Source: Candidatus Caldarchaeum subterraneum | GTDB lineage: Archaea > Thermoproteota > Nitrososphaeria_A > Caldarchaeales > Caldarchaeaceae | NCBI GenBank assembly: GCA_937934305.1 | Contig: CALHAG010000016.1 | Location: 1 to 48,659 of the forward strand | Reading direction: 5' to 3' | Length of the DNA: 48,659 nucleotides | Shown: positions 15,792 to 24,568 of the stretch, in pieces | How positions within the stretch are numbered: position 1 is the first letter of the stretch | How the letters are laid out: each line of letters opens with the position of its first letter | The notes under the pieces: model-generated | Databases searched by the model: none | Told to the model about the DNA's origin: nothing | The model's input: only the letters and a program-made list of their open reading frames with translations | Translations under genes and position numbers: made by a program

Positions 15792-16685
15792 TTGTTGACC
15801 GCTGTGTCGCTGGATGGCTTGGTGAGGGCGGAGATAGTGGTTGACGGTGATGTTCAGGGGGTTGGGTTTAGGTATTTTGTTAGGAGGGCTGCGAGGCGGC
15901 TCGGTGTAAAAGGGCTTGTCGAGAATCTTGAAAACGGAGCCGTGAAAATAGTCGCCGAATCCACCAAAGATAAGGTCGAGAGGCTGATAGAGACGATCAA
16001 ATCCGCTCCACCGCCCATACATGTCGACGAAACAACAGTAACATACACCAAGCCGACTGGCGAATTCAAAACATTCAAGATAATTGTGAAGGATTTGGCG
16101 GAGGAGATGGTGGAAGGCTTTGCAACAGGAGCTTCTTACTTCGAGATAATGTTCGATAAACAGGATAAGGCTCTTGCGAAGCTGGACACGTTGATTGAGA
16201 AGCAGGACTTGATGTTGCATAAGCAGGACCAGATGCTGGAGAAGCAGGATCTTATGCTCCATAAACAGGACTTGATGCTTCAAAAGCAGGACATAATGAT
16301 ACAGAAGCAGGATGAAATGTTGCAGAAGCAGGATAAGATGCTGGAGAAGCAGGACTTGATGTTGCGAAAACAGGACGAGATGTTGCAGAAGCAGGACTTG
16401 ATGTTACAGAAAACGGACCTGATGCTTCAAAAACAGGACATAATGATACAAAAGCAGGACCAGATGCTGGAGAAGCAAGACCAGATGCTTGGGAAGCAGG
16501 ACCAGATGCTTCAGAAACAGGACTTGATGCTTCAAAAGCAGGATGAGATTTTGGGGAGGCATGATGTTTTGGTGGAGGAGGTTAGGGGGTTGAGACGGGA
16601 TATCTCATCTCTCTTTGAGGAGAGGATTGCCCGCATCGAGAGGGATATTGCGGAGATTAAGGCGCGGCTTGGTCTCACAGGCTAA
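15792..16685 (+). CDS. Acylphosphatase domain fused to a 20-heptad coiled-coil repeat
   Basis: Residues ~12-100 are an acylphosphatase domain: VQGVGFRYFVRRAARRLG contains the catalytic Arg27 and GLVENLENG the catalytic Asn45, both intact, so hydrolysis of acyl phosphates is possible. Residues 121-260 (DNA 16152-16571) are twenty consecutive seven-residue units close to LxKQDxM, with Leu/Met at the two hydrophobic heptad positions and an almost invariant KQD. Residues ~261-297 are a further charged helix (RGLRRDISSLFEERI and on). The repeat predicts a long, uniform coiled coil of roughly 20 nm, so the enzyme is probably a multimer or tethered to a partner. No signal peptide or membrane segment. 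The start is TTG 15792 (TTG 15795 or GTG 15804 possible); a TATA-like acttata lies near 15764-15770. It is followed by the pilin cluster. Confidence 0.85.
   Translation: MLTAVSLDGLVRAEIVVDGDVQGVGFRYFVRRAARRLGVKGLVENLENGAVKIVAESTKDKVERLIETIKSAPPPIHVDETTVTYTKPTGEFKTFKIIVKDLAEEMVEGFATGASYFEIMFDKQDKALAKLDTLIEKQDLMLHKQDQMLEKQDLMLHKQDLMLQKQDIMIQKQDEMLQKQDKMLEKQDLMLRKQDEMLQKQDLMLQKTDLMLQKQDIMIQKQDQMLEKQDQMLGKQDQMLQKQDLMLQKQDEILGRHDVLVEEVRGLRRDISSLFEERIARIERDIAEIKARLGLTG
16152..16571 (+). repeat. Twenty tandem 21-base units encoding LxKQDxM heptads
   Basis: The coding repeat has a strict 21-base period with units such as a Gln/Lys-Gln-Asp codon core aagcaggac or aaacaggac. Unit-to-unit differences are mostly at the residues between Asp and Met (L, I, E, Q, K) and at synonymous third positions. 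There are no spacers, so it is not a CRISPR array. Confidence 0.9.
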
Positions 16686-16730: not shown

Positions 16731-18170
16731 ATGTATGGGGACCGGCGGGCCATAAGCACGGTCATCGCGGCGTTGGTGGTTACTGTTGTGTTTCTGGGCC
16801 TTGTTTCCGCTGCTCTCGGTATGCTTTACGCTCTTCAGGCTTCTTCGAGCGAGGCTGTTAGGAGGGAGGCGGAGAGGGCTATGGAGGCTTTCTTCATGAT
16901 TTACTGGGTGAACAGCACGCATGTTAGGCTTTTCAACAACCACAGCAGCTTAGCCGTTGTAATCAGGTACTGGATATCATCTGACAGCGGCGGTGTGAAC
17001 GTTATAGGGCCGCTTAATTCGGTGGATTGGTCTGTCCAGCCGAAAACATTCAGGGATGTTTTGGCTGCGGAGTCTCCACGCAATCCTAGCCGTCAATACA
17101 AGGTTGTCTCGGAGAGGGGGAGCGTTTTTACTGTTGGTGATGCTCCGTCGGAGCCCTGGTCTTTGTTTAGTCTGAGGGATGAGATGAGGTTGGTGAGGCC
17201 AGGGTTTAGCAGCGGTGTTAATGGGCCTTTGACCCAGCTTGTTTTGGCTACGGGGCCAGACTTCACAGGTGGTCCGGTGACCGTCAGCTGTGTCTCGGTC
17301 ACACCAGCGCCGGCTTCATGCTCCAGCTGGTCTGTGTCCTTCAACCCCTCTAGCCCCGTTACCGTGCCACCCGGTGGTGCTGTGGTGGTGAATATTTTGG
17401 CCAGCGTTCCGGCAGGCACTCCCATAGGGACATATTTTATGAGGATACGTGTTGACACGGGCGGGTTTGCGAGAGAGTTTCTCCTCAGGGTTGCTGTGGG
17501 TGATTTCACATTCGGCTTCACTCCGTCATCGATTAGCCTTGAGCAGGGCTGCGCCACAACCATCGGCTTAGTAGTAACACCAACCAACTACCGGTCGGAT
17601 GTTGGTTTCCGGGTCTCCACGATCTTTCCACCCGACACGAGGATTAACTACGCCGCATCCCCCGACCCGGTGCCGGTCAGGGATGCCGTGACCACGGCCG
17701 ACTTCTACGTCCACGTAAACGCCAGGCCCACCGGTTCAGGCACTAGGACTGTCGTGGTTGCGGGAGATGACGGCCTCGGCCCCGTTAAGACCAGCTCCTT
17801 TGTGATGACTGTGTTACCGGATTTCTGTATTTTGGTACCCTCTGGTGGGGGGAGTTTCGTTGTAAACGTCTTGATGCCCGCTGTTGTTGGATGTCGAGGA
17901 GACGCGGTGTCGGTTCCCGTCGAGATTTCGAGCTTGGGCGGATGGAGTGGCACCGTCACTTTGACGTTCACAGAATCACCAAACAACAACGTCATCAGAA
18001 CCGAGACCTTTACACCCAATCCCGTAACAGTGACCGCAGGCGGAACACATACCGCCACATTTAGCTTCGTTATATGGAGTGATGGGACAGTGACAGTAAT
18101 AGGTGAGAGCGGCTCCTTAACCTCCACCAGTAGCTTCACAGTGTCTAGGTTACCGCCTGCCGTATGCTGA
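16731..18170 (+). CDS. Large pilin-like surface protein with class III signal peptide
   Basis: 479 residues. The N-terminus MYGDRRAISTVIAALVV and the hydrophobic stretch to about residue 36 match the archaeal type IV pilin type: charged leader, cleavage by a PibD/FlaK-type peptidase near the RRA segment, then the assembly helix. The long remainder is beta-rich, Thr/Ser/Val/Pro-rich and cysteine-paired, resembling stacked Ig- or adhesin-like domains (segments around residues ~170-260, 265-370 and 385-475). It is much larger than ordinary pilins, so it may be a tip adhesin or minor pilin. ATG 16731 has an AT-rich element near 16694-16707. First of four pilin-like genes in a row. Confidence 0.75.
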   Translation: MYGDRRAISTVIAALVVTVVFLGLVSAALGMLYALQASSSEAVRREAERAMEAFFMIYWVNSTHVRLFNNHSSLAVVIRYWISSDSGGVNVIGPLNSVDWSVQPKTFRDVLAAESPRNPSRQYKVVSERGSVFTVGDAPSEPWSLFSLRDEMRLVRPGFSSGVNGPLTQLVLATGPDFTGGPVTVSCVSVTPAPASCSSWSVSFNPSSPVTVPPGGAVVVNILASVPAGTPIGTYFMRIRVDTGGFAREFLLRVAVGDFTFGFTPSSISLEQGCATTIGLVVTPTNYRSDVGFRVSTIFPPDTRINYAASPDPVPVRDAVTTADFYVHVNARPTGSGTRTVVVAGDDGLGPVKTSSFVMTVLPDFCILVPSGGGSFVVNVLMPAVVGCRGDAVSVPVEISSLGGWSGTVTLTFTESPNNNVIRTETFTPNPVTVTAGGTHTATFSFVIWSDGTVTVIGESGSLTSTSSFTVSRLPPAVC

Positions 18171-18400
18171 GAAGCGCTGAGTAATCGGAAACACATTCCA
18201 TAATTTAGGGAAATCATCATGGCTCAGTACTCCAAACTTCTAACAAAAATAGATAAATTCGGCCCGGGATATTTTTTGTGTCCGTGACTGTAAGAAACAA
18301 TTTTCTCCCCAATCTTAGGGATTTGGCCACGGTGAATGATTGCGGTAAATTTGCCTGGCCGAGATACTTTTGGTCGTGTTTGTTTCGGAGTTGTTTGCCT

Positions 18401-18805
18401 TTGGGTTCGCGTGGTCTTAGCTATATTGTGGGTGTGCTTCTGGTGCTTGGGGTTACTTTGGCGGCTGTGGTTGTTTTTACGCAGGCTGCTGGTTTTCAGT
18501 TTGGTGTGTTGAACCAGTTTGCGGCTTTGGATGTTCGTCGTGCGGGGGAAAGCTTGGTGGTTGCCGAGGCTCATGGGAGCGGTGTCATCATATTCTACAA
18601 CAACGGCGTACTCCCTGTCTGCGTCGCGGAGGTCCATGTTGTGCAGCTCGGCAGCGGAGTGGTCATCAACCCATGCTTGGAGATAAACCCCCGAGCCTAT
18701 GCCTCCTACCCTCTCCTAGCATCTGGATGGCCAACGGGCGAATACACGCTTCTGGTGAGAACATCATCAGGCAAAATTTTTTCCTTCCATGTGTTTGTGC
18801 CATAA
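18401..18805 (+). CDS. Pilin-like protein, paralogue A of a pair
   Basis: The N-terminus GSRGLSYIVGVLLVLGVTLAA matches that of the protein at 19433 (RSKGLSYIVGVLLILG), with the same basic-Gly-Leu-Ser leader/cleavage site and hydrophobic assembly helix. The mature parts also align, sharing RRAGESLVV and a YNNG...C..EV segment with a Cys pair. TTG 18401 is chosen by this alignment; the frame stays open to GTG 18278, and a gataaatt box near 18249-18256 is about 26 bases from that GTG, so a 41-residue longer leader is a real alternative. The 230 bases between the previous gene and TTG 18401 hold this possible extension and nothing else I recognise. Confidence 0.7.
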   Translation: MGSRGLSYIVGVLLVLGVTLAAVVVFTQAAGFQFGVLNQFAALDVRRAGESLVVAEAHGSGVIIFYNNGVLPVCVAEVHVVQLGSGVVINPCLEINPRAYASYPLLASGWPTGEYTLLVRTSSGKIFSFHVFVP

Positions 18806-18884: not shown

Positions 18885-19322
18885 ATGACTCGTTCAGGAG
18901 CTAGAGGTTTGAGCCCTCTTGTAGCCGTTATCCTGTTGATAGCGATAACCGTTGCAGCCGCCGTCGTCGTCTCAGGTGTGTTCTTCAACCTCGCAGGCAT
19001 AGCGGGCAGAAGACCCACGGCAGTAATAGACCAAGTAAGGGTCGTCGCCACCCCAGCCGGGGCCGGTACATGGGCCATAGTGGTCAAGAACACAGGAGAC
19101 GTCCCAATAACAACCATTGCAGCCACTTATCCGGGTGGATGCGCCCCAGCGTCAACGACTTTCGCCCCGCTTCCTCTCAACCCAGGAGGAACTGCCGCAG
19201 CAACGGCCAACGTTGCTACCGGCTGTACATTGGGAACAACTTACCGTATAGTCCTTACCATCACATTCCAAGATGGTTCTCAACAGGTTCTGGCTACACA
19301 GGCTACAGCCGTTATAGCATAA
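18885..19322 (+). CDS. Type IV pilin-like protein
   Basis: 145 residues. RSGARGLSPLVAVILLIAITVAAAVVV is the textbook archaeal pilin/archaellin N-terminus: a basic leader, cleavage after the Gly in RG|LSP, then a hydrophobic assembly helix. The mature domain is small, Ala/Thr/Gly/Pro-rich and beta-rich, with cysteines in GGCAP and TGCTL that could form a disulphide. This is the best candidate for the main filament subunit. ATG 18885 lies 27 bases from gtttttat at 18854-18861, so the mRNA is probably leaderless. Confidence 0.8.
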   Translation: MTRSGARGLSPLVAVILLIAITVAAAVVVSGVFFNLAGIAGRRPTAVIDQVRVVATPAGAGTWAIVVKNTGDVPITTIAATYPGGCAPASTTFAPLPLNPGGTAAATANVATGCTLGTTYRIVLTITFQDGSQQVLATQATAVIA

Positions 19323-19432
19323 ATAAACCAACGCCACTTATTTATTTTTGTGAGAGCAGTTTGGCACAATTTTCCACCGGCGAGAATGGTTCAAAAAGAG
19401 ATTTTACCCAGTATCTTCTAGAAAATGGGGGA

Positions 19433-19831
19433 ATGAGGTCGAAGGGTCTCAGCTATATCGTCGGGGTCTTGTTGATACTGGGGGTTACTCTGGCTGCTGT
19501 GGGGGTTTACACGGCCGTGGCCTCGCAGCAATCCAACATCCTAATGCAGTTCAACATCCTTGACATTCGCAGGGCCGGCGAAAGCCTCGTAGTCGTCGAA
19601 TATCACAGGGCTTCAGGCCAGCTGGTCCTCTACAACAACGGCCAGGTCCCTACCTGCCTCGTCGAGGTTGTGGCCGTTGGCGTGGGAGCCGTCTACAGCA
19701 ACCCCTCCTGCAGCCTCATCGACCCCTTGAGGACAGACACGATATCCCTCGGCCTGGTAAGCCCGCCACAGAAGATCACGCTAGTAGCCAGAACCATAAA
19801 CAACAAAATCCTCACCTACACAATCACCTAA
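19433..19831 (+). CDS. Pilin-like protein, paralogue B of a pair
   Basis: 132 residues, starting RSKGLSYIVGVLLILGV, a class III-type leader and assembly helix like that of the protein at 18401; the shared DIRRAGESLVVVEY, LYNNGQVPTCLVEV and a second Cys in NPSC show that the two are duplicates. ATG 19433 is chosen because it aligns with the paralogue, has a G-rich run at 19427-19431, and lies 28 bases from attttaccc near 19401-19409; the frame is open further upstream but that part overlaps the previous gene and reads as noise. Confidence 0.78.
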   Translation: MRSKGLSYIVGVLLILGVTLAAVGVYTAVASQQSNILMQFNILDIRRAGESLVVVEYHRASGQLVLYNNGQVPTCLVEVVAVGVGAVYSNPSCSLIDPLRTDTISLGLVSPPQKITLVARTINNKILTYTIT

Positions 19832-19871: not shown

Positions 19872-20588
19872 TTGGCGACAAAACTACGCCGCGAAACCAT
19901 CAAACTCCTCAAAGAAGACTAAGAATTCCGCTACACCGTAGCAGGCCTCATAGGCCTCGACCAAATACTACAACGACACGACGAAATCGAGCAAGGACTA
20001 ACAGGGCTCCGAGAAGAACAGCTCAAACTCTGGGAAAACAGCAACAAGCTATAGGAGGGGGTGAAAGCATTACGGGAAGGGCAGAACAGGTTGTGGGAGG
20101 AGTTTAAGGCGTCACACGAGGGCCAGAACAGGCTTTTCGAGGGCTACAACCGTCTTGAGAAGGCTTTGGAAGAGCTTGCAGCTGTTCAGAAGAACCTGGC
20201 TAAGCAGGTTGGAGCCCTCTCCGACACCACTGGCTTCGGCATAGATGACATCGCACGCGTCATCGTCCCTGGCTGGCTGCTCCGCATCGAGGGAATAAAG
20301 ATGACCGACGAGTTTGTGAGAAGATGGGTCGTGGTCGGCGGCGAGGAGATTGAGGTGAACCTCTACGGCGAAGGCTACGGGAACGGTGAAAAGATGACTA
20401 TTATCGGGGAGGCTAAATCCAGGATTTACAGAAACGAGGTCATCAGCTTCGACAGGTGGGTGAGCCTTGTTGAAAAAGCCTTGGGCGGAACGGTTTACAA
20501 GTTTATGTGCGGATACCTCGTCCACCCATCTGCCGAGGAAGAGGCGAAAAAGAGAAACATAACCCTCATAGCATCATACATGCGCTAA
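19872..20588 (+). pseudogene. PD-(D/E)XK-type (DUF3782-like) gene interrupted by two stop codons
   Basis: Read from TTG 19872, one frame gives a typical archaeal DUF3782-like protein: a basic N-terminal helix, then EFRYTVAGLIGLDQIL, a coiled-coil region with repeated WE/GQNRL units, and a C-terminal restriction-endonuclease-like core with EEIEVNLYGEGYG and the catalytic-type IIGEAKSR (Glu-X-Lys). It is broken by TAA at 19920-19922 (where related proteins, as I recall them, have Pro) and TAG at 20052-20054. The part from GTG 20061 to 20588 (175 residues) is open and is preceded by a strong AGGAGGGG at 20053-20060, part of which lies in the stop codon, so this truncated form could still be translated. 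Its stop overlaps the convergent TadC-like gene by 4 bases. Confidence 0.7.
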
Positions 20589-21994
20589 ACAAAAGCAGAA
20601 GCTATGGAATAGACAAGCAACGTGGCGAGCACACCTGCTCCAGCTCTCCAGCAAGCAGCTATCGTCTGGTCCTCAATACGTCCCACAACCACGCCCAACA
20701 CATATGAGACAAGCATCGCAAGAGGAAGAACAGGCTCTATGCTTGGAACAGCTATGAGGCGCTGAACCTCCGTCGCCACATCTTGTGGAAGACCCGTGAA
20801 AGGTGCGAGCGTTATGGCTGAGACGGCGATGATTGCTGCGCCGCTTGCTATCGCAAGCGCTGTGTAGAGCTTCATACGTGCACGGGCCCCTGTGAAGCTT
20901 AGGTAGATGGAGAGGGCGAGCCTCGCCAAGAGGCTGAGGGCCTCAGCCCCCAGTCCACCCAGCCGCGCAATCTTCACGGTCTCCATCGCCAAAGCCATGA
21001 ACCTGTTATACGGGTTTATCTCAAGCCCATGTGCAATAGCCATCGCGTACCGCTTGTACCTCGGGTCAGCGACAGCCTCGAGACTTCGTCCAAGCGGATA
21101 CCCTGCTCTCAGCCGAGCCGCCACACCATCCAACAGGAGAAAAGATGCCTCACCCTCGGCAACAGCCCTCCGGACATACATGAAGTGGACAAACAAGCCC
21201 CACACAAGCGTCGCCACCCCCGCAACCACACCAAGCAGCACAGGCATGAAACCCAGCAGACTCGTAGCCAAAACCCCTCCAAAGACGAAGATGACCGCCG
21301 TCGAGATGAATGTGATGCTGCGTGGAAGATCTACGAGATGCAACGGCTCCGAGGCGCTGGACACAACGTAGAGAACAGCGGCGGCCGCAATAGCGATGAC
21401 AACAGAATAGATAAGCGGAAACCCGCCCAGCAGCCCGCCCACCACATAAATCAACGGAATCAACAATATCACAGATACGACAACCTCCCCGAGCGTCTCC
21501 ACACTGTCCACGTATCTTTTCCACCTGTCTGACTCACGTGAAATGGCCTGCTCAATCAGTTTCTCAACCTTCTCGACGACACCGAAGCCACTCTCCAAAT
21601 CCTCGCCAAGCGAACCCAGCAACAGCGTGAACTCACGGCTCGGATGAACATACTGTTTCAAACCATCGGCAAGAGTCCTCCTCTCAGACTCCCGCACCAG
21701 AAAAGACGAGACCTCGGAAAGGTGTTTGATATATCTTCTCCGCGAGGCTGCTTCTCTAAGGGACTGTAGCATTGTTTTTCCGCTCTTGAGGAAGACGTAG
21801 AGGATGACGAGGAAAAACGTCTGCTCCTTCTCTGCGCTGCTGCTCTTCTCCGATTCCTGTAGACGCCCGTATAGTCCAATCACTGTGGCAGCTAACCCAG
21901 CCATACTGAGATAGGGCCAATAAACCAGAACAAAATCAAGAATAGAACGTGTCACCGAGGTATCAAGCAACTTTGACGACCTCCACTTCGACAC
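20585..21994 (-). CDS. Type II/IV secretion (T2SSF/TadC-like) pilus platform membrane protein
   Basis: 469 residues with two halves each ending in hydrophobic helices, as in archaeal platform proteins (PilC/FlaJ/TadC type) on which the assembly ATPase acts. Membrane segments are seen near residues ~20-45, ~175-235 (double), ~245-290 and ~385-470; the cytoplasmic parts hold the family's helical bundles, such as EASFLLLDGVAARLRAGYPLGRSLEAV with the conserved Gly-Ser-Leu. It overlaps the TackOD1-like gene upstream by 32 bases and is last in the operon. Together with the ATPase it should assemble the pilins encoded convergently at 16731-19831. Confidence 0.85.
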   Translation of the reverse strand: MSKWRSSKLLDTSVTRSILDFVLVYWPYLSMAGLAATVIGLYGRLQESEKSSSAEKEQTFFLVILYVFLKSGKTMLQSLREAASRRRYIKHLSEVSSFLVRESERRTLADGLKQYVHPSREFTLLLGSLGEDLESGFGVVEKVEKLIEQAISRESDRWKRYVDSVETLGEVVVSVILLIPLIYVVGGLLGGFPLIYSVVIAIAAAAVLYVVSSASEPLHLVDLPRSITFISTAVIFVFGGVLATSLLGFMPVLLGVVAGVATLVWGLFVHFMYVRRAVAEGEASFLLLDGVAARLRAGYPLGRSLEAVADPRYKRYAMAIAHGLEINPYNRFMALAMETVKIARLGGLGAEALSLLARLALSIYLSFTGARARMKLYTALAIASGAAIIAVSAITLAPFTGLPQDVATEVQRLIAVPSIEPVLPLAMLVSYVLGVVVGRIEDQTIAACWRAGAGVLATLLVYSIASAFV

Positions 21995-22880
21995 CGAATG
22001 TCTCCGCTGTCTTCAGAGCAGCTTCGGCGAACTCGACACCCGCCATTATCCAGCGTATTCTACCCAAGGCCCCGGGGATGCTGGTTTTCTCCACGTCGAG
22101 CCTTTTAACAGCAAACCTGAGAAGCGTCTCGGCGTCGACAAAGTATCCAACCTCGTAGACGCGTGTCTCCTCCACCCTTACAGCCAGCAAGCTGATTTGA
22201 TGCGTGGCTCCGCTGACTCCGCGCAGGGACACGTTTTCAGATACTTTGAACCCCTCCTCGAGAAGCTTTCTAAGCAATACTCTGAGTGGGCTGCGGACCT
22301 CAAGCAGCAGTGAGCCGCTCTCCGTAGGCGTGTAGCGGCGGAGCGTCAGATAAACCATGTCAGACGCCTTGGCACTGAAGCCGCATGAAACACATTCGGA
22401 CACAACCTCAGGATGTTCAAAAACCTCTCCACAGCTGTTGCATACAAACCTTCCATGACTGTTTACAAAATCCTTTCTCTCAAGAACGTCGCCGCATTTT
22501 GGGCAAGTTTTCACAGAGGAGAGCAGTGTCTCAGGTATAGATGCCCCACAGTTATGAACATGAACAATAACTTTTTCGATGTCCTCTGAGCTGCATGCGG
22601 GACAGTTTAGATGAGGCTGGAAAAGCCCCTTCCCGCATCTCACGCATGTCGCAATCTTCTTCTCGAAAACACTCTTAACAAGCCCACGTGACTCCAGCCT
22701 GTCGAGAATCTTGAATAGTGAGGATCGGTCAAGCTTCATCGGAGGGTCTGCAACCAGTTTGACCTCGCCTGTCTTGGCGTCTACCTCAAATATCTTCACA
22801 CCCTTTTCCGAGCCCTGCATAAGATGGCTAAGCCAAGAAAGCACCTCGTATTCTTCGGCGGAGAAGTCAATCAGCGACAA
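21963..22880 (-). CDS. Winged-helix plus zinc-ribbon protein (TackOD1-like) in the pilus operon
   Basis: 305 residues. Residues ~1-75 look like a winged helix-turn-helix (DFSAEEYEVLSWLSHL, SLFKILDRLESRGLV). Residues ~80-170 carry at least four Cys pairs (CVRCG, CPAC, CPKCG, CNSCG, CVSCG) with an intervening HNCG, which resembles the multi-cysteine TackOD1 output domain known from TACK archaea. Residues ~175-305 are an alpha/beta region without motifs I recognise. It overlaps the ATPase gene by 14 bases and the platform gene by 32, so it is made with them. A regulatory or sensing role in pilus expression is plausible but inferred. Confidence 0.65.
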   Translation of the reverse strand: MSLIDFSAEEYEVLSWLSHLMQGSEKGVKIFEVDAKTGEVKLVADPPMKLDRSSLFKILDRLESRGLVKSVFEKKIATCVRCGKGLFQPHLNCPACSSEDIEKVIVHVHNCGASIPETLLSSVKTCPKCGDVLERKDFVNSHGRFVCNSCGEVFEHPEVVSECVSCGFSAKASDMVYLTLRRYTPTESGSLLLEVRSPLRVLLRKLLEEGFKVSENVSLRGVSGATHQISLLAVRVEETRVYEVGYFVDAETLLRFAVKRLDVEKTSIPGALGRIRWIMAGVEFAEAALKTAETFGVEVEVVKVA

Positions 22881-24072
22881 GCCGCAGCTCTCTCCGAAGC
22901 TTCTCCACCCGCTCAGATAATTGCTCCGCCCTCAGCTCCTCCCCCGAGGAAAGTACGGTCTCGAGAATGCTCAGCTTGTTTTCGTAGTCTCTTCTGAGTG
23001 ATGGGTTGTGCACCAACATAGGTGAATTCACGATCAGCTGCTTAGCTGTCTCGGGAAAGAATTTTCCAGTATCTTCGTCGAACCAGCTTATCAAATGCTC
23101 GCTCCCAGTCCTCTCAATCTCCCAGACACCGATAACCCTCCTGCCCTTCGAGGTGTTCCGCACAATCGCCACCACGTTGAGGAACGAGAGCTCCTCCTTT
23201 AGAACACCCATGCTGGCACCGGTCAGCCTCTGGTAAACATCCTCGAGGCTTTCGGCGTGAATGGTCGACGCCATACCGTGGCCTGTTGCGGCTGCCGAAA
23301 ACATAACCCTTGCCTCAACACCCCTAACCTCCCCCACAATGGTGTAGTCAGGCCTGTGTCGGAGGCTGAGCCTCAGGATATCTGCCAGGGAGTAGGCTGT
23401 TTCGCCAAGGGTTCGCCTCGTGACGAATCGGTGCCAGTTTCTATGCCATGAGAGGTTTATCTCGGGATGATAGTCCTCGAGCGTCAAAAGCTTAGCGTTG
23501 GATGGAAGCAGCTGGAGAAGTGCCGAGAGAAGCGTTGTTTTACCGCTTCCCGTCGGCCCAGCAACCATGACGAATTTCTTGTTCTCGAGAGCTGTCCAGA
23601 GGTAGGCGGCAGTTATGACCGTCAAGGTTCCCTTTTTTATCAGGTCGATGATGGTGTAGGGGCTGCGTGGAAACTTGCGTACAGTGATCGTGCTTGTGCC
23701 TGGAGTGAGTTCGCCTGCGTAGGTTAGCGCTATTCGGTCGCCTTCGACTGTCATGATCTCGGCTGCGGGTTTGGCGATGCTCAGCTCCGCCCCGTTCCGC
23801 TCGGCAAGCAGCCTCGCCTGTTTATCAAGCTCCTCAGCCGTGAGCACGATGCTGGTCTCTATCCAGCCGAGGTCTGGGTGACGCCTGTGAATGACGTATA
23901 CCGGACCCGGCTTCGTAATGGTTATGTCCTCGAGACCCTCATCCCTCAGAAGAGGCTCAAGCTTCCAACCACCCCGCAAATTCTTCCACAGAAAATATCT
24001 CAACACCTTTACACGGTCCTCATCTATATCATATTCTTCAAGAAGCTTGAAGGGGTCCACACCTTTCTTCAA
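22867..24072 (-). CDS. Pilus assembly ATPase (PilB/FlaI/VirB11 family)
   Basis: Hexameric secretion ATPase that powers pilin assembly. From TTG 24072 it is 401 residues: Walker A AGPTGSGKTT (about 171-180), Asp box TLEDYHPEI, Walker B TIVGEVRGVEA and the His box GHGMASTIHAES. The N-terminal domain is incomplete from this start: upstream, in the same frame and without a stop back to TAG 24196-24198, 41 further codons read SIIRQENRYRYVVEEPSLS and on, which matches the usual N-terminus of archaeal secretion ATPases. That stretch has no ATG, GTG or TTG. So the true start is either a rare codon (ATT or ATA), or the protein is joined to the upstream membrane ORF by reading through the TAG. It overlaps the next gene by 14 bases. 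Confidence 0.85.
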   Translation of the reverse strand: MKKGVDPFKLLEEYDIDEDRVKVLRYFLWKNLRGGWKLEPLLRDEGLEDITITKPGPVYVIHRRHPDLGWIETSIVLTAEELDKQARLLAERNGAELSIAKPAAEIMTVEGDRIALTYAGELTPGTSTITVRKFPRSPYTIIDLIKKGTLTVITAAYLWTALENKKFVMVAGPTGSGKTTLLSALLQLLPSNAKLLTLEDYHPEINLSWHRNWHRFVTRRTLGETAYSLADILRLSLRHRPDYTIVGEVRGVEARVMFSAAATGHGMASTIHAESLEDVYQRLTGASMGVLKEELSFLNVVAIVRNTSKGRRVIGVWEIERTGSEHLISWFDEDTGKFFPETAKQLIVNSPMLVHNPSLRRDYENKLSILETVLSSGEELRAEQLSERVEKLRRELRLVAD

Positions 24073-24195
24073 ATACTGTTGCTCAACCCGTCTAATAATC
24101 TCCTCCTCTTCATCCGATAGGCTGGGCTCTTCAACGACATACCTATACCGGTTCTCCTGCCTAATTATACTGACCTCAATAATCTCGTCTACTCT

Positions 24196-24198
24196 CTA
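24196..24198 (-). other. In-frame TAG between membrane ORF and ATPase N-terminus
   Basis: The stop codon of the 64-residue membrane ORF (24196-24390) lies in exactly the same frame as the pilus ATPase, and the codons after it encode conserved ATPase N-terminal sequence. No standard start codon lies between this TAG and TTG 24072. Confidence 0.75.
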
Positions 24199-24390
24199 CC
24201 GGTCGATGACTTCGGGAGAAGAGGTTTCCTCAACCTCTAAAACCTCCTCCACCACAACATCATCACTCTTCCGCTTCCTGAATAGACGCACCGCCGCCAA
24301 AGAAGCGGCTATCACCACCCCCGCCAGAACCAGTACCCCCAGCCAGCTTCCCGTGAAAAAACTCAACAGTCCAAAGTCCTCCAACAACAC
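24196..24390 (-). CDS. Small membrane-anchor ORF upstream of the pilus ATPase
   Basis: 64 residues from GTG 24390: a short N-terminus, one hydrophobic segment (WLGVLVLAGVVIAASLAAV, about residues 16-34), a basic RLFRKRK stop-transfer stretch and an acidic tail rich in Val and Glu. A tatttacc box near 24414-24421 is about 27 bases from the GTG, so transcription probably begins there and continues into the ATPase. The frame ends at TAG 24196-24198 in the same frame as the ATPase. It could be a separate small membrane protein or the membrane anchor of a longer ATPase form. Confidence 0.55.
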   Translation of the reverse strand: MLLEDFGLLSFFTGSWLGVLVLAGVVIAASLAAVRLFRKRKSDDVVVEEVLEVEETSSPEVIDR

Positions 24391-24568
24391 CCTCGCCGAA
24401 GATCATGGCCGCGGTAAATATACTCTTATCTGCCCTCATTTTGGAAAAATATTATCTAAATACCTTAATAGTTTGGGCAAATGCTTTCAACGATCTTTTC
24501 GGAGACGGGGTAGATTATTTTCCGTGGAGGGTGTAAACAGTTTTTACCCGGATATGTTTAGAGGAGGT

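Follow-up and report, generated by a model that had tools for sequence, protein, structure and literature searches.

The interrupted ATPase gene and its pilus operon

The window, that is, the entire analyzed stretch of 48,659 nucleotides of contig C16 of a Ca. Caldarchaeum MAG (G000; 1.56 Mb, 97% complete), encompasses on its minus strand a gene (22867..24390) that codes for an archaeal secretion (type IV pilus) ATPase with a membrane anchor and is interrupted by a single in-frame TAG (24196..24198). Upstream of this codon is a 64-codon ORF (MLLEDFGLLSFFTGSWLGVLVLAGVVIAASLAAVRLFRKRKSDD...EVIDR; 24199..24390) that opens with GTG 24390 and has the TAG as its terminator; beyond it, the same frame stays open for 442 codons, until TGA 22867-22869. 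The short ORF encodes an anchor that consists of one predicted transmembrane (TM) helix (residues 16-41; 24268..24345), a basic stop and an acidic linker, with the last five codons falling, according to both the alignment and the predicted structure, within the first strand of the N-domain. The downstream frame encodes a T2SSE secretion ATPase (Pfam PF00437, E 1.2e-30), in agreement with an earlier note on this DNA, and its best sequence matches in the PDB are GspE (2OAP, E 8.5e-63) and FlaI (4II7, E 6.8e-54). The combination of the T2SSE core with an intact Walker A motif, GPTGSGKTT (23533..23559), identifies a type IV pilus/secretion ATPase (T2SSE, VirB11-like); the gene itself is a member of this family although the window allele lacks a complete N-domain with a start codon.

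Between the TAG and the earliest possible in-frame restart, TTG 24072 (24070..24072), which corresponds to residue 107 of the full-length frame, lies an N-domain segment (24073..24195) without a single in-frame ATG, GTG or TTG. The layout is as the earlier note described it, with an ATPase frame that is devoid of these starts over this segment and is in frame with the 64-residue membrane ORF. The lack of a start codon 3' of the TAG is to be expected because this stretch is internal coding sequence, and the in-frame arrangement of the two halves is not due to chance because relatives carry both as one gene.

A TATA-like element, TATATTTA (24415..24422, minus strand), is recognizable in the sequence and in the alignment with the same-genus genome G002: TATATTTACCG, at about 24422, is located ~28 nt 5' of GTG 24390 and has a counterpart about as far from the ATG of the G002 gene. 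A leaderless promoter ahead of GTG 24390, as proposed in the earlier note, is plausible on these grounds; the part of that proposal that assigned it to the anchor as a separate unit did not hold, the promoter belonging to the fused gene as a whole.

The rest of the operon, also on the minus strand, is intact. The next gene encodes a TackOD1/arCOG06883-type double zinc-ribbon protein (21963..22880; PF18551, E 2e-21) that is one uninterrupted ORF in G002 (78% identity). A TAG that seemed to be in frame in the HR01 match to the zinc-ribbon protein was rejected: it appears to lie only at the edge of the match, and the frame itself is open. The ATPase gene also adjoins a gene for a TadC/FlaJ-like membrane platform protein (T2SSF; 20585..21994), which is 87% identical in G002 and for which the PF00482 score is weak (E 3.5e-4, below the curated cut-off). 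The operon order is kept in G002. Proteins of the arCOG06883/TackOD1 type occur in thaumarchaeal pilus loci, according to excerpts of two publications (PMC4858521, PMC5847659).

Several plus-strand genes nearby (16731-18170, 18278-18805, 18885-19322 and 19070-19831) encode proteins of a secreted or pilin-like type, with hydrophobic segments at the N-terminus (e.g. MTRSGARGLSPLVAVILLIAITVAAAVVVS); these genes adjoin the motor operon and are likely to be the filament genes of the same pilus. Another plus-strand gene (15792-16685) encodes a protein with an acylphosphatase-like N-terminus (VDGDVQGVGFRYFVRRAARRLG), after which a 21-base unit, repeated ~17 times, codes for KQD-x-ML heptads that are predicted to form a long coiled coil; the ortholog in G002 is 73% identical. 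At the contig end (46466-48659), identity to G002 rises to 95-99%, from about 83-85% in other parts, pointing to a mobile element or one that was shared recently.

Orthologs, the tyrosine codon and the predicted fold

We compared the interrupted gene with its orthologs in four close relatives, namely, G002 (a closed genome of 1,680,938 bases from the same genus), G003 (Candidatus Caldarchaeum sp.), G005 (HR01) and G039 (Benthortus; Ca. Benthortus lauensis), which are, respectively, 88%, 78%, 66% and 63% identical to the window gene over the ATPase. In all four, the gene is a single ORF in which the ATPase frame is continuous with upstream codons for a hydrophobic helix, a basic stop and an acidic linker. 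The Kyte-Doolittle peak upstream of the N-domain (KD19) reaches 2.5-2.8 in the four fused relatives, compared to 1.4 at most in the other relatives checked, and the structural model places a helix in the same position.

In these orthologs, the TAG is aligned to a tyrosine codon, TAT in G002, G005 and G039, and TAC in G003. In the wider alignment, Tyr is present in all 16 sequences that extend to this column; the gapped sequences are trimmed ones, and Tyr was seen in several of their translations. No stop was found at this position in any of the aligned relatives. With four intact close orthologs carrying a sense codon where the window has a stop, the window gene resembles a nonsense-interrupted gene in this respect, and of the three readings in the earlier note, the tests support that of a former fusion gene broken by a nonsense mutation.

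The fused and the separate arrangement are both found among the relatives. In a sister clade of the same order (G029, G035, G037, G038 and G043), the ortholog is a separate, anchor-less protein of 445 residues that starts ~16 residues before the Tyr and retains it. Because anchor-less orthologs are found in one clade of the order, the anchor must have been gained or lost within the order.

An AF2 model of the full-length frame (24 sequences, mean pLDDT 86.5), in which the stop was read as an assumed Tyr 65, has a TM helix at residues 16-41 and shows the best structural matches to GspE and FlaI. The first strand of the N-domain (residues 60-66) contains the stop, so the TAG is predicted to lie inside a beta strand rather than at a domain boundary. 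The next elements are strands 72-78 and 81-87 and helix 93-109; both strands and most of the helix are encoded by the segment between the TAG and TTG 24072. Given that TTG 24072 corresponds to residue 107, a restart there would entail the loss of three strands and most of a helix.

These observations bear on the possibility, part of which was raised in the earlier note, that a separate, soluble ATPase is translated from a rare AUU/AUA start just 3' of the TAG or from TTG 24072. The anchor-less orthologs of the sister clade indicate that a soluble form can work, and GAGGT is present 4-7 nt ahead of in-frame ATA/ATT codons. However, the anchor-less proteins themselves begin ahead of the Tyr, whereas an AUU start would forfeit this invariant residue together with the first strand, an arrangement without a parallel in the relatives; the damage caused by the TTG start would extend even further, and no conserved start was found either just after the TAG or at TTG 24072. 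We therefore consider separate translation of the ATPase to be very unlikely.

Taken together with the genome-wide results given below, the comparison makes it highly probable that the locus is a single gene, cut by one nonsense codon (TAY to TAG), that codes for an archaeal type IV pilus assembly ATPase with a membrane anchor. The TAG would go back either to a null mutation of recent date or to a wrong base in the MAG consensus, rather than being an evolved recoding site. The intact protein would be oriented N-out/C-in, and its single helix would keep the motor ring close to the TadC-like platform. In the presence of the TAG, only the 64-residue anchor would be made, accompanied at best by a damaged ATPase initiated at TTG 24072. 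The genome encodes further T2SSE ATPases (on contigs C9, C28 and C2), so the loss of the interrupted copy could be tolerable and need not be lethal.

TAG codons in the genome and the age of the change

The earlier note also put forward that the UAG is suppressed and yields a free anchor along with an anchored full-length ATPase, thus setting the anchor-to-motor ratio. If such suppression, programmed or natural, were shown to occur here, it would be a case of read-through without pyrrolysine in archaea. The conservation of the frame on both sides of the UAG and the conserved leaderless-type promoter at the start of the anchor are compatible with this proposal, and a second in-frame TAG in the genome, described below, would be another substrate. 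The evidence from the rest of the genome points in the opposite direction. The search for pyrrolysine genes that had been recommended yielded nothing over the cut-off in this 97% complete genome for the models of the PylS C-terminal, PylS N-terminal and PylB (TIGR02367, TIGR03912 and TIGR03910; each model is passed by one of the 14 control genomes). Among the 42 tRNA matches, none was read as CUA, with the qualification that the set lacks at least tRNA-Trp and that not all of the tRNA genes with introns could be resolved. Moreover, TAG terminates 102 of the 353 orthologous genes (29%), most of which end in TAG in G002 as well, so that UAG is neither rare nor avoided as a terminator, contrary to the expectation for pyrrolysine read-through. 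The RNA 3' of the UAG does not fold any better than shuffled sequences (z 0.18 for 116 nt; the other value is z 1.71), and this region has no Rfam match. Add to this that no relative has a stop at the site and that the cut falls inside a beta strand, and that Sec and Pyl are the only cases of archaeal read-through described in the consulted passages of a review (PMC8211752). Suppression of the UAG at this site thus appears highly improbable. Genome-wide UAG recoding can be discarded given the fraction of TAG stops, the failure to find PylS and PylB, and the paucity of internal TAGs.

The background of broken genes was assessed by comparing ~1.06 Mb of the window genome with ~1.08 Mb of G002, roughly two thirds of each, which comprised 536 coding orthologs with 158,820 codons. 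Once 5' extensions and antisense ORFs had been set aside, the survey left two clear in-frame stops, both TAG, along with a few candidate frame breaks. This rate of interruption is an unremarkable background. Suppression would also produce internal stops that are all TAG, and to that extent the observation counts against a nonsense break, but with n=2 it proves nothing. The second TAG is located in a poorly conserved Methyltransf_11 gene (G000:C2:49846-49848, minus strand), where GDE-TAG-RVVVDVG corresponds to GDE-TTG(L)-RVVVDVG in G002; this gene, too, has no start codon directly after the TAG. All remaining apparent stops in the survey are 5' extensions or antisense shadow ORFs. Within the window, no other interrupted ortholog was found; ArgC (~2600) was a candidate for a second broken gene, but its frame break is in a 5' non-coding stretch, outside the gene.

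Neither half of the interrupted gene shows decay and the rest of the operon is intact, which speaks against a nonsense break and implies that the change is either recent or a consensus error. Between the window and G002, the dN/dS ratio is 0.21 for the anchor, 0.19 for the UAG-to-TTG segment and about 0.05 for the rest of the gene. The anchor and the UAG-to-TTG segment are the fast-evolving ones between other pairs of genomes too, and the value for the latter segment is an apparent signature of purifying selection. No extra divergence, such as relaxed selection would cause, was found on the window branch, in what is a weak test because the synonymous sites are near saturation; the identity of the UAG-to-TTG segment to G003 is 41% for the window and 37% for G002. 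This pattern of divergence is compatible with a nonsense mutation of recent date, with an error in the consensus, and with translation that has continued; the last of these is opposed by the other evidence.

With respect to the origin of the TAG, the narrower possibility is that it merely reflects a wrong consensus or base call in the MAG, whereas the living cell has a Tyr codon and makes the normal fused protein. A change from TAT or TAC to TAG involves one base, the lack of decay on either side and the intact operon are what such an error would leave, and there is a precedent, reported in a section of PMC8211752, in the aIF1 gene of S. solfataricus, which was annotated as interrupted but proved full-length on resequencing. 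Nonsense errors must, however, be rare because the other orthologs in the window and nearly all of the 536 are uninterrupted, and the flanking codons, CGG and AGA, also differ from those in the relatives, so that the window departs from them at this spot by more than one odd base. We regard an error as a serious possibility, somewhat short of an even chance, within the preferred reading of a fused gene cut by one nonsense codon.

The anchored motor among known systems

The stop codon itself looks ordinary. The mildly new aspect is the intact gene of the relatives, in which a membrane anchor is fused to the N-terminus of an archaeal type IV pilus ATPase, an arrangement seen here only in some Caldarchaeales. 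Secretion ATPases normally are soluble rings that dock on a membrane platform. A motor fused to its own membrane helix in one archaeal lineage would constrain the models of the contact between the ring and the platform.

The pilus loci of TACK clade 4 described in parts of PMC4858521 and PMC5847659 likewise contain an ATPase, a TadC-like platform protein and a double zinc-ribbon protein, with pilin-like genes nearby; in those parts of the census, no mention of a membrane-anchored ATPase was found. The ATPase analyzed here shares the fold and the motor motifs with GspE (2OAP) and FlaI (4II7, 4IHQ). In contrast to these proteins, the N-domain is preceded in the ATPases of the close relatives by a TM anchor at the N-terminus and an acidic linker, and in the window copy the first strand of this domain is broken by a stop.

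The interruption resembles the pyrrolysine read-through of UAG in methanogens in that an in-frame UAG is embedded in a conserved archaeal frame, but differs in that Pyl genes were not found here, UAG is a frequent normal stop, and the site is occupied by Tyr in the relatives. No clear difference was seen from the interrupted genes and pseudogenes of archaea that are reviewed in PMC8211752: here, too, a single stop cuts an ORF that is conserved otherwise, and the genome contains few interruptions of this kind.
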